Virus record (IMG/VR): IMGVR_UViG_3300045999_004770
Location: 1 to 32,175 of that record
Source of the DNA: a virus
DNA length: 32,175 bases
Strand: one strand, 5' to 3'
Position numbers and translations under genes: made by a program. The notes below the pieces were generated by a model, which was not told where the DNA came from, made no database searches, and worked only from the letters and a program-made list of their open reading frames with translations. Shown here one piece after another: positions 18,322 to 32,175 of the stretch. The first letter of the stretch is position 1; the number at the start of each line of letters is the position of its first letter.

Positions 18322-18341
18322 AGGGAGTGTTTCCACTCCCT
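18322..18341 (-). terminator. GAAA-loop hairpin between SSB and downstream genes
   Basis: On the minus strand AGGGAGTG and CACTCCCT form eight perfect pairs around GAAA, followed by TAAATTT rather than a clean T run. It resembles the capsid terminator hairpin with one compensatory pair change. It may be a weak terminator or RNA-stability element reducing expression of the last two genes. Confidence 0.5.
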
Positions 18342-18358: not shown

Positions 18359-18634
18359 CTAAAAGGGCAAATCTTCAATTACTGCATTATTTACAGGCGA
18401 TGTTGCTGCTGCTAATGGCTGCTTAATATTGCCGATGTATACTTTCTTTTCTCCTGCTTCTCTTTCTGCCTTGGATTGGCTTAATTGAATGCTTCCAATA
18501 TTGCCATATTGGTCAAGTTCATCGTTTACCCAAACATTGATGTTTAGGTACTTTTTACCATTCTTTTCTGAAGTGGTGATTTTCTCTTTTGGGATATCTG
18601 TTAAACAGATTGATCCATTATACAACTTACTCAT
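18359..18634 (-). CDS. ssb: SSB-like single-stranded DNA-binding protein
   Basis: The 91-residue protein looks like a small OB-fold protein: strands in KLYNGSICLTDIPKEKI and KKYLNINVWVNDE, then GSIQLSQSKAERE and KVYIGNIKQP. A flexible Ala/Pro/Asn tail ends in the acidic tip EDLPF, the hallmark of bacterial-type SSB interaction tips. It should coat single-stranded DNA and recruit replication or recombination partners. It is shorter than cellular SSB. The leader carries the covarying hairpin shared with the ERF gene. It lies within the leftward early operon. Confidence 0.65.
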   Translation of the reverse strand: MSKLYNGSICLTDIPKEKITTSEKNGKKYLNINVWVNDELDQYGNIGSIQLSQSKAEREAGEKKVYIGNIKQPLAAATSPVNNAVIEDLPF

Positions 18635-18667
18635 GTTATTGCAGGATATAGGGAGCCTGTGCCTTTA
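18635..18667 (-). promoter_or_regulatory. Conserved leader hairpin, copy before the SSB-like gene
   Basis: The minus-strand RNA has stem CAGG/CCTG (18659-18656 with 18645-18642) around the 10-base loop CTCCCTATAT, seven bases before the ATG. The element runs exactly from the upstream stop codon to the start codon. It matches the ERF leader at 26 of 33 positions, with six of seven differences in compensatory pairs. Confidence 0.65.
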
Positions 18668-18949
18668 AAAGTTTTCCTTTATAAACTCCGCTAATAAATC
18701 TGCTTTGTTTACTTTAGGTATTGTATGAAATATTTCTGCTTGTTTATCTCTATCTAATTTGCCTTCATATTTTCGATATGGTGGCAATTCAATTGTTCGC
18801 AGCGAAGATAGTAATATTGGCTTTACAAATTCGCAAATACTACCAAAAAATGATTTTGTTTTTTGATATTCTTTATGAAGCATCTGCCTGTATAATTGTG
18901 CAACTCTGTAATGCTCGGCAATCATCCATTCTTTGAATTCTGTTCTCAT
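18665..18949 (-). CDS. Early protein of unknown function, 94 aa
   Basis: The 94-residue basic protein begins MRTEFKEWMIAEHYRVAQLY and is mostly helical. The middle has SFFGSICEFVKPILLSSLR, and the end has KADLLAEFIKENF. No catalytic motif or membrane segment is evident. It overlaps the upstream 74-aa gene by four bases. Its stop codon forms the first bases of the conserved leader hairpin of the SSB-like gene. No family is recognised. Confidence 0.55.
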   Translation of the reverse strand: MRTEFKEWMIAEHYRVAQLYRQMLHKEYQKTKSFFGSICEFVKPILLSSLRTIELPPYRKYEGKLDRDKQAEIFHTIPKVNKADLLAEFIKENF

Positions 18950-19170
18950 AGTTTTTCTATTTCTTGTTTAACTTGGCGATACCATTGATGTTCATTATAA
19001 TCAATCCTTACTTCATTGATTATTTCATCAACTAATTTTAAAGCGCAGATTTTATAATATTTGTTATTCGGTCCTGTTATTTCCATTCTATCCAATGTCC
19101 AATTGTAAACAGTATGGTTACCGAATTTATAAAACTCAACTAACTCTTTTGCTTTTTCTTTTGCTGTCAT
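18946..19170 (-). CDS. Early protein, member of a paralogous pair, 74 aa
   Basis: The 74-residue protein has the layout KEKAKELVEFY, a variable middle, ICALKLVDEIINEV and an end WYRQVKQEIEKL. It is clearly related to its upstream neighbour (KDKAKYLI, IKVIDEIIEEL, YWQNVKNEINFL). Proteins of this all-alpha type are frequent in early regions of Bacteroidetes phages, without known function. It overlaps the 94-aa gene by four bases, and its start overlaps the previous gene's stop by four bases. Confidence 0.6.
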   Translation of the reverse strand: MTAKEKAKELVEFYKFGNHTVYNWTLDRMEITGPNNKYYKICALKLVDEIINEVRIDYNEHQWYRQVKQEIEKL

Positions 19171-19352
19171 AAAAAATTTATTTCGTTTTTAACATTCTGC
19201 CAATATTTAAAAGGCAGGTTTACTTCATCAGAAACCAATTCTTCAATCTCAATTAGTTCTTCAATAATTTCATCTATTACTTTGATTGCATATTCTTTAC
19301 CGAATTTTCTAATTAAATACTTTGCTTTGTCTTTTACTGTTTGATTATCCAT
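19167..19352 (-). CDS. Early protein, second member of the paralogous pair, 61 aa
   Basis: The 61-residue acidic helical protein aligns with the next gene along its length. Both share an N-terminal K-x-KAK helix, a VIDEII helix and a C-terminal YW-x-x-VK-x-EI end. It looks like a tandem duplication followed by divergence, this copy having lost a middle segment. Its leader, 19353-19444, contains a large terminator-like stem. Function is unknown. Confidence 0.6.
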   Translation of the reverse strand: MDNQTVKDKAKYLIRKFGKEYAIKVIDEIIEELIEIEELVSDEVNLPFKYWQNVKNEINFL

Positions 19353-19370
19353 GTTTAAGATTTTAAAAAA

Positions 19371-19438
19371 TCCTGCCCTGTTGCCAATTAACTACTAACT
19401 AACCATCACGTTATTAATGTTTAAGGTTAAGGGCAGGA
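19371..19438 (-). promoter_or_regulatory. Attenuator-like stem in the leftward early operon
   Basis: On the minus strand TCCTGCCCT (19438-19430) pairs perfectly with AGGGCAGGA (19379-19371) across a 50-base loop. TTTTTT follows at once, then the ATG at 19352 about 18 bases later. A strong stem plus T run inside an operon suggests a conditional or partial terminator. The loop could fold alternatively (CCTTAACC with GGTTAG). Confidence 0.5.
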
Positions 19439-19444
19439 ATAAGG

Positions 19445-19666
19445 TTATGAATTATATTCTTCGTCTAATTTTGCCTTTCTTTTCTGATAGGCAATTTCCC
19501 TTTCTCTATCTGCATCTGTTATTTCCATTGATAGTATCTCTTGCAATGTAGTCTTTCGATTGAAATCCCAAATTGCTTTACCACTACTTCCGGAAGTTAT
19601 TGGTGGCACTATTTCACCATTTCTATCTATTGGGTAACTATCATTTAAGGTATCAAGCGTTCTCAT
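19445..19666 (-). CDS. Early protein of unknown function, 73 aa
   Basis: The 73-residue protein has an unstructured N-terminal half (MRTLDTLNDSYPIDRNGEIV, then PPITSGSSGKAIWDFN) and a charged helix at the end (DADREREIAYQKRKAKLDEE). Its start overlaps the 3' end of the ERF gene by 14 bases, so it is probably cotranslated with ERF. It might be an ERF partner, but no family is recognised. Confidence 0.55.
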   Translation of the reverse strand: MRTLDTLNDSYPIDRNGEIVPPITSGSSGKAIWDFNRKTTLQEILSMEITDADREREIAYQKRKAKLDEEYNS

Positions 19667-20180
19667 ATTCTAATGCTTTTAGTTTGAATGATGCAATTAC
19701 TTGTTCTGTTTTATCTGCTGCTGATAATTGTTGCCAAATGTTTGTCAATTCTGCTTTGCTTGTTGCTGATGCTATCTTTTGCATTACTGATGTATCAGAC
19801 TTTACAGGTGCTTGTGAATCTGCATCTTTGGTATCATCAATAAGGAACAATCCATTAAGGCAATACTTTCGAGCATAGGAAGATGCAGCACCAGATACCT
19901 GACTACCATCCATTCCTTTCTTGCTTTCCTCTTCTCTTGCTAATGCTGAAACTTCAATAACTCCATCTTCACTTTTGAACTTTGCAGTTGCTTTGATGTA
20001 GAATCTTGTTCCAATGTTTACTACTTCATCTGATATAATTAGTTTGCAATCATACTTGGCAAGTAATGGTTTGACTGCTTCAAGAATATCTTCACAATTT
20101 CGGTATTTGTACTTCCCGAATGAATTGTACTGATTCTTTGGTGCTTTTAATTCTGATTGGATTTGTGTGAGTTTGTTCAT
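19653..20180 (-). CDS. erf: ERF-family single-strand annealing recombinase
   Basis: The 175-residue protein matches the ERF superfamily, which anneals complementary DNA strands during phage recombination and genome circularisation. Its N-terminal core has KYRNCEDILEAVKPLLAKYD and the beta hairpin LIISDEVVNIGTRFYIKATA. The family signature SQVSGAASSYARKYCLNGLF follows, ending in LIDDTKDADS. The C-terminal 45 residues are a variable helical tail. SSB and a branched-DNA nuclease lie downstream in the same operon, forming a recombination set. The leader holds the conserved covarying hairpin. Confidence 0.85.
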   Translation of the reverse strand: MNKLTQIQSELKAPKNQYNSFGKYKYRNCEDILEAVKPLLAKYDCKLIISDEVVNIGTRFYIKATAKFKSEDGVIEVSALAREEESKKGMDGSQVSGAASSYARKYCLNGLFLIDDTKDADSQAPVKSDTSVMQKIASATSKAELTNIWQQLSAADKTEQVIASFKLKALEYENA

Positions 20181-20213
20181 GTTAATGGCTGATATAGGGA
20201 GCAGCTGCCTTTA
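20181..20213 (-). promoter_or_regulatory. Conserved leader hairpin, copy before ERF
   Basis: The minus-strand RNA has stem GCTG/CAGC (20205-20202 with 20191-20188) around the loop CTCCCTATAT, seven bases before the ERF ATG. The element begins at the stop codon of the 21-aa ORF and ends at the start codon, as in the SSB-like leader. Confidence 0.65.
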
Positions 20214-20276
20214 TTTTTTTAGTAATAGTTTTAGTAAAAGTAATTCAATAATGAATGTCAATGCCATGCCTATCAT
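20211..20276 (-). CDS. Tiny hydrophobic peptide, 21 aa
   Basis: On the minus strand ATG 20276 overlaps the stop of the DnaA-like gene (ATGA). It encodes 21 residues: a hydrophobic core (MIGMALTFIIELLLLKLLL) and a KK end. It may be a single membrane-spanning peptide or simply a coupling frame that delivers ribosomes to the ERF leader. Confidence 0.4.
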   Translation of the reverse strand: MIGMALTFIIELLLLKLLLKK

Positions 20277-20638
20277 ATCTGTTTATTTAATGTGTTAAAG
20301 TCATACATGAATCCTGCATCTTTAGTAGCGATATAATCACTTGTTTGTCTAATATGATGCACTACTGTTGTATGATCTGAAATTGATGGCTTCAATAATT
20401 CAGCTATCTTAATAGTCGTTAATGAGGTATTCATACGAAGAAAATAAATAATGAATCTTCTGCAAGATACATAATCTTTATATCTGTTTTTCTTCTTTAC
20501 TTCTTCAAAAGGTATTCCAAAATGATTGCAACAAATATCTATTATTCTATCGCTTTGCATCTTTTGAGATAGTTTAAATTCGCCATCTAAATCTTTTGAT
20601 TTGCGAAGTCCCGGTATTGCGTATGCGCTGTATATCAT
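20273..20638 (-). CDS. Orphan DnaA domain IV-like DNA-binding protein
   Basis: The 121-residue protein resembles the C-terminal DNA-binding domain of DnaA. A helix begins at about residue 28 (SDRIIDICCNHFGIPFEEVK), followed by YVSCRRFIIYFLRM, LTTIKIAELL and the signature SDHTTVVHHI (DHTTV at 88-92), which in DnaA reads DnaA boxes. No AAA+ domain is present. It could bind the phage origin or host DnaA boxes, recruiting or blocking host initiation. Tiny hydrophobic ORFs overlap both its start (TAATG) and its end (ATGA). Confidence 0.8.
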   Translation of the reverse strand: MIYSAYAIPGLRKSKDLDGEFKLSQKMQSDRIIDICCNHFGIPFEEVKKKNRYKDYVSCRRFIIYFLRMNTSLTTIKIAELLKPSISDHTTVVHHIRQTSDYIATKDAGFMYDFNTLNKQI

Positions 20639-32007: not shown

Positions 32008-32175
32008 ATGACAAAAATATTTATCGAAGGCTATGAATTGGACTTAAGTAAAGGTTTATCTAATCAGTTAACCTATGCAATTGATGACTTGAACAATTTA
32101 GATAGCAAGGCAACAACATTTAGTAAGACAATAGTATTGCCGGGAACTGCAAACAATAACTATCTATTAGGCTCT
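32008..32175 (+). CDS. Tail protein, 5' portion of junction-spanning gene
   Basis: ATG 32008, one base after the upstream stop, starts MTKIFIEGYELDLSKGLSNQ. From 32050 the sequence repeats that at base 4 in the same frame. The remaining 669 residues are encoded at 4-2013, giving 683 in all. The last codon of the window (TCT, Ser) differs from the corresponding AAC (Asn) at 127-129. Confidence 0.8.
   Translation, partial: MTKIFIEGYELDLSKGLSNQLTYAIDDLNNLDSKATTFSKTIVLPGTANNNYLLGS
32050..32172. repeat. Terminal direct repeat, right copy (circular overlap)
   Basis: It is identical to bases 4-126. Removing one copy gives a circle of 32,046 bp. Confidence 0.9.

Follow-up and report, generated by a model that had tools for sequence, protein, structure and literature searches.

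Two genes of an uncultured phage, encoding an ERF single-strand annealing protein and an SSB-like protein, are each preceded by a 33-nucleotide leader that almost certainly folds as a compact H-type RNA pseudoknot. This leader pseudoknot appears to be previously undescribed, and it is widely conserved in many uncultured Bacteroidota phages. Its fixed sense orientation and short, constant spacing before several unrelated genes indicate control of translation initiation, and on sequence grounds we consider translational control by the leader likely. The complete explanation, in which the pseudoknot would be a translational operator and the SSB-like protein its ligand, stands at about even chances.

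The paired leaders and their architecture

The window, by which we mean the whole 32,175-nucleotide stretch of DNA that was analysed (IMG/VR record IMGVR_UViG_3300045999_004770, positions 1 to 32,175), carries a perfect direct repeat of 123 nucleotides at its ends (4-126 and 32050-32172), which suggests a complete phage genome of ~32 kb that is terminally redundant or circular. A sequence-only reading of this DNA had placed covarying hairpins before the ERF and SSB-like genes, and both elements are indeed found there, on the minus strand.

18322..18341, minus strand: strong hairpin, AGGGAGUG-GAAA-CACUCCCU, just 3′ of the SSB-like gene
18359..18634, minus strand: SSB-like protein, 91 amino acids, main target and proposed repressor (phrog_24909, function unknown; DDLPF tip)
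18635..18667, minus strand: leader pseudoknot directly 5′ of the SSB-like ORF, reading TAAAGGCACAGGCTCCCTATATCCTGCAATAAC and then ATG from 18667 to 18635 (sequence; covariation in relatives; generic descriptor)
5′ part of the SSB-like leader, minus strand: UAA 18667-18665; S1 5′ AGG 18664-18662; L1 CA 18661-18660; S2 5′ CAGG 18659-18656
3′ part of the SSB-like leader, minus strand: L2 CUC 18655-18653; S1 3′ CCU 18652-18650; L3 AUAU 18649-18646; S2 3′ CCUG 18645-18642; spacer CAAUAAC 18641-18635
18665..18949, minus strand: 94-amino-acid ORF; the SSB-like leader element begins with its UAA stop codon
19653..20180, minus strand: ERF single-strand annealing protein, 175 amino acids, second target gene (Pfam PF04404, E=8.4e-38; PHROG 155)
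20181..20213, minus strand: leader pseudoknot directly 5′ of the ERF gene, reading TAAAGGCAGCTGCTCCCTATATCAGCCATTAAC and then ATG from 20213 to 20181 (sequence; covariation in relatives; generic descriptor)
5′ part of the ERF leader, minus strand: UAA 20213-20211; S1 5′ AGG 20210-20208; L1 CA 20207-20206; S2 5′ GCUG 20205-20202
3′ part of the ERF leader, minus strand: L2 CUC 20201-20199; S1 3′ CCU 20198-20196; L3 AUAU 20195-20192; S2 3′ CAGC 20191-20188; spacer CAUUAAC 20187-20181
20211..20276, minus strand: 21-codon ORF (MIGMALTFIIELLLLKLLLKK); the ERF leader element begins with its UAA stop codon

Both window leaders follow the order UAA-S1-CA-S2-CUC-S1′-AUAU-S2′-(6-10 nt)-AUG of an H-type pseudoknot. 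Across the family this becomes the 5′ strand of a 3-bp S1, L1 (1-2 nt), the 5′ strand of S2 (4-5 bp), L2 (3 nt, mostly CUC or CAA), the 3′ strand of S1, L3 (about 4-5 nt), the 3′ strand of S2, a spacer and the AUG. This order of S1 and S2 is sterically ordinary for an H-type pseudoknot. As had been proposed, six of the seven differences between the two leaders form three compensated pairs (GCTG/CAGC versus CAGG/CCTG). The accompanying claim of a hairpin with a conserved loop is half right: the covarying hairpin is real, but the CCU taken for loop is paired to the AGG that directly follows the UAA, a second stem that turns the hairpin into a pseudoknot.

The loop word alone could recur by chance within the window. 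A generic pseudoknot descriptor that places no requirement on loop sequence matches only the two leaders when run over the whole window on both strands, and an IMG/VR scan in which the stem letters were left free returned many contigs with the shared layout before start codons and with stems that differ but match. Since dozens of IMG/VR contigs repeat this layout with stems of other sequence, the leaders stand above chance. In the leaders of SSB-like homologs, the loop covaries with the bases 5′ of the hairpin as AGG/CCU, CGG/CCG, UCA/UGA, ACA/UGU and CCA/UGG, and this covariation of the 5′ AGG, CGG, TCA, ACA or CCA with the loop rules out a simple hairpin. A nested fold, pairing S1 5′ with S2 3′ and S2 5′ with S1 3′, was likewise rejected: its positions are paired in 78.6% of cases versus 75.6% after shuffling, and it is impossible in the ERF copy and in TCA-type members, although some family members could adopt it.

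Two further structures lie near these genes. On the minus strand at 19372-19437, between the ERF cluster and the next genes, a CCTGCCC ... GGGCAGG stem with a long interior is followed by a T run; L008 and L016 retain the stem but differ in its interior, and it possibly represents a terminator or a further structured RNA. A 3′ hairpin of differing stem (AGGGAGG..CCTCCCT or GGGGAAGG..CCTTCCCC) follows the SSB-like gene in most of the relatives shown, and that gene therefore has a pseudoknot on its 5′ side and a hairpin on its 3′ side. Pairing between the leader loop and the 3′ hairpin, for which the window offers a complement of 8 nt, was ruled out because it is not kept in other phages.

Comparative tests of the pairing

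Among 35 distinct elements, some of them found with a descriptor that itself demanded pairing, S1 and S2 are paired in 245/245 cells (seven pairs), compared with 79% in shuffles. Two-sided changes occur in six of the seven pairs, and the covariation score is 0.531, versus 0.135 for shuffled and at most 0.084 for slid alignments. Uncompensated stem changes in relatives, which had been named as the result that would speak against selection on structure, were looked for, and not one of the 245 cells holds a one-sided change.

Given how some rows were found, the unbiased tests are scans with a pair left free and leaders chosen by homology. In two collection scans, neither base of one S1 pair was prescribed. 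Every distinct match with an S2 of at least 4 bp (30/30) carries A-T (15) or C-G (15) at that pair and has an AUG nearby, the intended start lying 9-11 nt past the pattern; the remaining matches are scattered over the pair combinations. When the 3′ strand of S1 was left wholly free, the matches listed include at least 13 paired ones near an AUG, 12 of which are family-like, and at least 14 unpaired ones near an AUG, which are mostly rich in G+C and are not set in a UAA context. One IMG/VR scan for the loop word mixed true and chance matches, and only those with S2 and a nearby AUG pair in S1.

The homology test recruited leaders solely by similarity of the downstream protein, with dinucleotide shuffles as the expectation. 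The pseudoknot is present in 22 of 29 leaders of close homologs (shuffle mean 0.25), in 3/17 at middle distance (0.09 expected) and in 3/65 of distant homologs (1.0 expected); a few homologs inside the closest E-value bin also do without it. The S1 pair at columns 4/18 occurs as C-G, A-U and U-A. On a tree of 29 SSB-like proteins, in which many forks are weakly supported, the three S1 pairs change at least 10 (columns 4/18), 5 and 5 times. Together, this comparative evidence strongly supports the earlier proposal that an RNA structure is under selection.

S1 and the four core pairs of S2 contain no G-U pairs in the 35 distinct elements. This is unusual for RNA; stems of 3-4 bp may not tolerate G-U. 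The same absence would suit a structure formed in single-stranded DNA, such as a replication or packaging signal, and the downstream genes do handle ssDNA; a like doubt has been raised for the STAXI motif (PMC2864571). Such a DNA signal is nevertheless very improbable given that the element always lies in the sense orientation, with about 5-10 nt from S2′ to the AUG, before several unrelated genes and sometimes twice per genome.

The conserved unpaired letters are the AA of UAA, the first C of L2 and A21. It had been noted that the elements run exactly from the upstream stop codon to the start codon, which describes both window leaders and does not generalize. The UAA ends an upstream ORF in the window and in about 8/40 elements, and it is kept (as AAA in a few) in relatives even though mostly no gene ends there. 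Thus the UAA is best regarded as part of the structure, reused as a stop where a gene lies upstream, and the idea that the structure is a by-product of stop-codon spacing is ruled out. Between the UAA and L3, columns 1-21 can pair in 33/35 elements and columns 2-20 in 24/35, so that the UAA perhaps pairs loosely with the AUA or ACA of L3 across an A.A mismatch. The 21-codon ORF that ends at the ERF leader is hydrophobic and lies between a DnaA-C-like gene and ERF.

At six loci a tRNA gene (tRNA-Lys or tRNA-Ser; L003 4851-4941, L005 10415-10505, L009, L010, L011 3745-3836 and L457 2003-2094) ends 1-7 nt ahead of the element, and tRNA 3′ processing there could create an mRNA 5′ end at the pseudoknot. 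Both upstream contexts invite a reading without any ligand, in which the structure shields the 5′ end or adjusts initiation, and a ribosome terminating at the UAA unfolds it, as in translational coupling. We regard this as rather improbable: coupling cannot be general when the UAA ends no gene in most elements, and strict Watson-Crick pairing along with conserved unpaired letters suggests recognition over generic stability.

Target genes and the proposed ligand

A covariance model finds the element in 38/40 virus records, a figure that conveys no prevalence because the 40 were picked for carrying the element or a related SSB-like gene. Each bears one or two copies (two in 11 records), all directly before a start codon. 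By a tally over several scans, 37 of the 38 element-bearing records have one copy in front of the SSB-like gene, including G012 and G036, whose SSB-like members are distant (profile E=2e-17 and 4e-17). The second copy precedes ERF in G000, G001, G005 and G014, a ParB-like gene in G002, G004 and G010, ORFs of 114-122 amino acids in G009 and G033, and, in G039, an 89-amino-acid ORF upstream of a Sak4-like gene. The exception is G037 (L468, 7855-8225), where two elements precede ORFs of 109 and 77 amino acids and where we found neither an SSB-like homolog nor a DLPF-tailed protein. The leader of L155, just upstream of 5145, can be fitted by eye as UAACGU-GC-GCCCGU-G-ACGAUAUA-ACGGGC, with a 6-bp S2 and a 1-nt L2 such that the S2 5′ strand plus L2 still span seven nucleotides; neither the covariance model nor the descriptor matches it. 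In the L114 leader the complementary words are present and leave no space for a connecting loop.

Within the sets searched, the element is restricted to phage records. Strictly filtered searches of Bacteroidota chromosomes gave 0/395 genomes, a weak negative in a set that held no positive-control genome, and neither a 36-nt BLAST of sequenced isolates, likewise weak for so short a query, nor the leaders of the nearest annotated homologs yielded an element. Among 84,980 species genomes there are no close homologs of the SSB-like gene and 25 distant ones, mostly in Bacteroidota, and among annotated phages its relatives occur mainly in those of Flavobacterium, Polaribacter, Tenacibaculum and Riemerella. 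From these homologs and phage hosts, the element can be assigned, by inference of host, to Bacteroidota phages.

The identity of ERF is secure by Pfam and PHROG. The 91-amino-acid protein, to which no Pfam family was matched, consists of a short domain, a variable linker and a DLPF tip. Its DDLPF end is an acidic C-terminal tip finishing in PF, as in SSB, with L, P and F (nearly) invariant in 71 sequences, and in Flavobacterium phage elemoE a homolog lies directly before ERF and a 5′-3′ exonuclease. Two AlphaFold models have mean pLDDT of 76 and 78, the latter being beta-rich, and an OB-fold search with them gave no PDB match. From the conserved tip behind a variable linker and the neighbouring genes, we infer that the protein is an SSB.

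The sequence-only reading had suggested a probable translational operator bound by a phage protein, perhaps SSB or ERF itself. An operator remains the best reading of an element placed 6-10 nt before the AUG, and SSB is a plausible ligand given the copy at its gene in nearly every element-bearing record. ERF is unlikely in this role, since most of those records have no element at any ERF gene. We hypothesize that the two window leaders are copies of a compact H-type pseudoknot operator. When the SSB-like protein exceeds the available ssDNA, it would bind the pseudoknot on its own mRNA; the folded, protein-held structure would cover the message from about -8 to -33 relative to the start codon, block loading of the 30S subunit and turn synthesis off. 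In the window phage, synthesis of ERF would also be shut off by the SSB-like protein. The outcome would be that the proteins that coat and anneal ssDNA are both matched to its amount.

Autogenous control of this kind, in which the RNA would repress and the SSB-like protein would be its ligand, fits a near-constant copy at the gene of that protein with recombination genes as second targets in several phages. Against the SSB-like protein as ligand are the two elements in G037, which has no detectable homolog of it; the distant homologs, most of which, like a few close ones, have no such leader; and the protein itself, which has no fold or family match that would prove it an SSB. The same pseudoknot might instead serve as an operator, or as an activator site, for some other factor, either a different RNA-binding regulator of the phage or a translation or ribosomal factor of the host, with the SSB-like and recombination genes switched together in one infection stage. 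The variety of second targets (ERF, ParB-like, the Sak4 operon and ORFs of unknown function) and the elements of G037 both agree with this alternative, which we consider unlikely, though the least so of the rivals. An outside regulator would not require a copy at the SSB-like gene in 37/38 records, and no shared regulator gene was identified, albeit with no systematic search. The size of the element, its H-type topology and its few invariant unpaired bases also recall the preQ1-I class, yet a small-molecule riboswitch has very little to recommend it when the targets are DNA-binding and recombination genes rather than metabolic ones and no Rfam riboswitch matches.

Relation to known systems

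Rfam 15 gives 0 matches at or above the gathering score over the whole window, and no match at E<=10 to any family, including STAXI (RF01728), over 18500-20400. In open-licence papers we found work on T4 and RB69 and on the STAXI motif, and nothing on this pseudoknot element. STAXI too is a pseudoknot found close to genes whose products handle DNA, SSB among them, but it consists of 2-3 tandem pseudoknots with UUCG loops in Enterobacteriales, whereas the copies described here are single (1.5 kb apart in the window and one or two per record elsewhere) and tied to a start codon. T4 gene 43 and rpsO (S15) likewise exemplify autogenous control at the translation start by a nucleic-acid-binding protein; gene 43 differs in using a hairpin, and rpsO is a cellular pseudoknot bound by a ribosomal protein. 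The proposed control of ERF resembles that in M13, where the SSB gp5 represses translation of gene 2, another replication gene (PMC535899), although no such pseudoknot is described there (PMC535899) and both phage and protein are unrelated.

The closest parallel is the gene 32 leader of T4, T2 and RB69, which contains a pseudoknot that mediates translational autorepression by gp32 (PMC535899, PMC3014915); in T4, gp32 in excess over ssDNA binds this leader pseudoknot (PMC535899, PMC3014915). In both systems the leader of a phage SSB gene (here SSB-like, by inference) contains an H-type pseudoknot whose structure is kept while its sequence diverges, and feedback when ssDNA is short is proposed here by analogy. 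The T4-type pseudoknot, however, lies at least ~40 nt upstream, with A+U-rich unstructured UUAA(A) repeats in between, whereas ours lies about 5-10 nt from the AUG, has much shorter stems, can be copied before a second gene and belongs to Bacteroidota phages. None of the searches made (Pfam, PDB) relates the SSB-like protein to gp32. Thus, the leader may function as the T4 gene 32 operator does without being a member of its type.

We therefore put forward, a little short of even confidence, a Bacteroidota-phage pseudoknot class that would have evolved independently of the gene 32 operator, through which an SSB-like protein would control translation of both itself and a recombination partner, and whose 5′ edge would contain or abut an upstream stop codon or tRNA 3′ end. 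The element is an addition to the structured RNA classes of a group of phages in which cis-regulation has received little study, and it points to a function for a phage family labelled unknown, phrog_24909. In T4-type phages, an mRNA pseudoknot has been shown to mediate SSB autoregulation, and it is a long-standing question how a protein that binds ssDNA without specificity can single out the mRNA that encodes it. If our proposal is true, the leaders described here would offer a compact model for structural work: a system unrelated to that of T4-type phages and far smaller, represented by dozens of natural variants and in some genomes acting on two targets. It would also indicate that the solution known from T4-type phages has evolved more than once.
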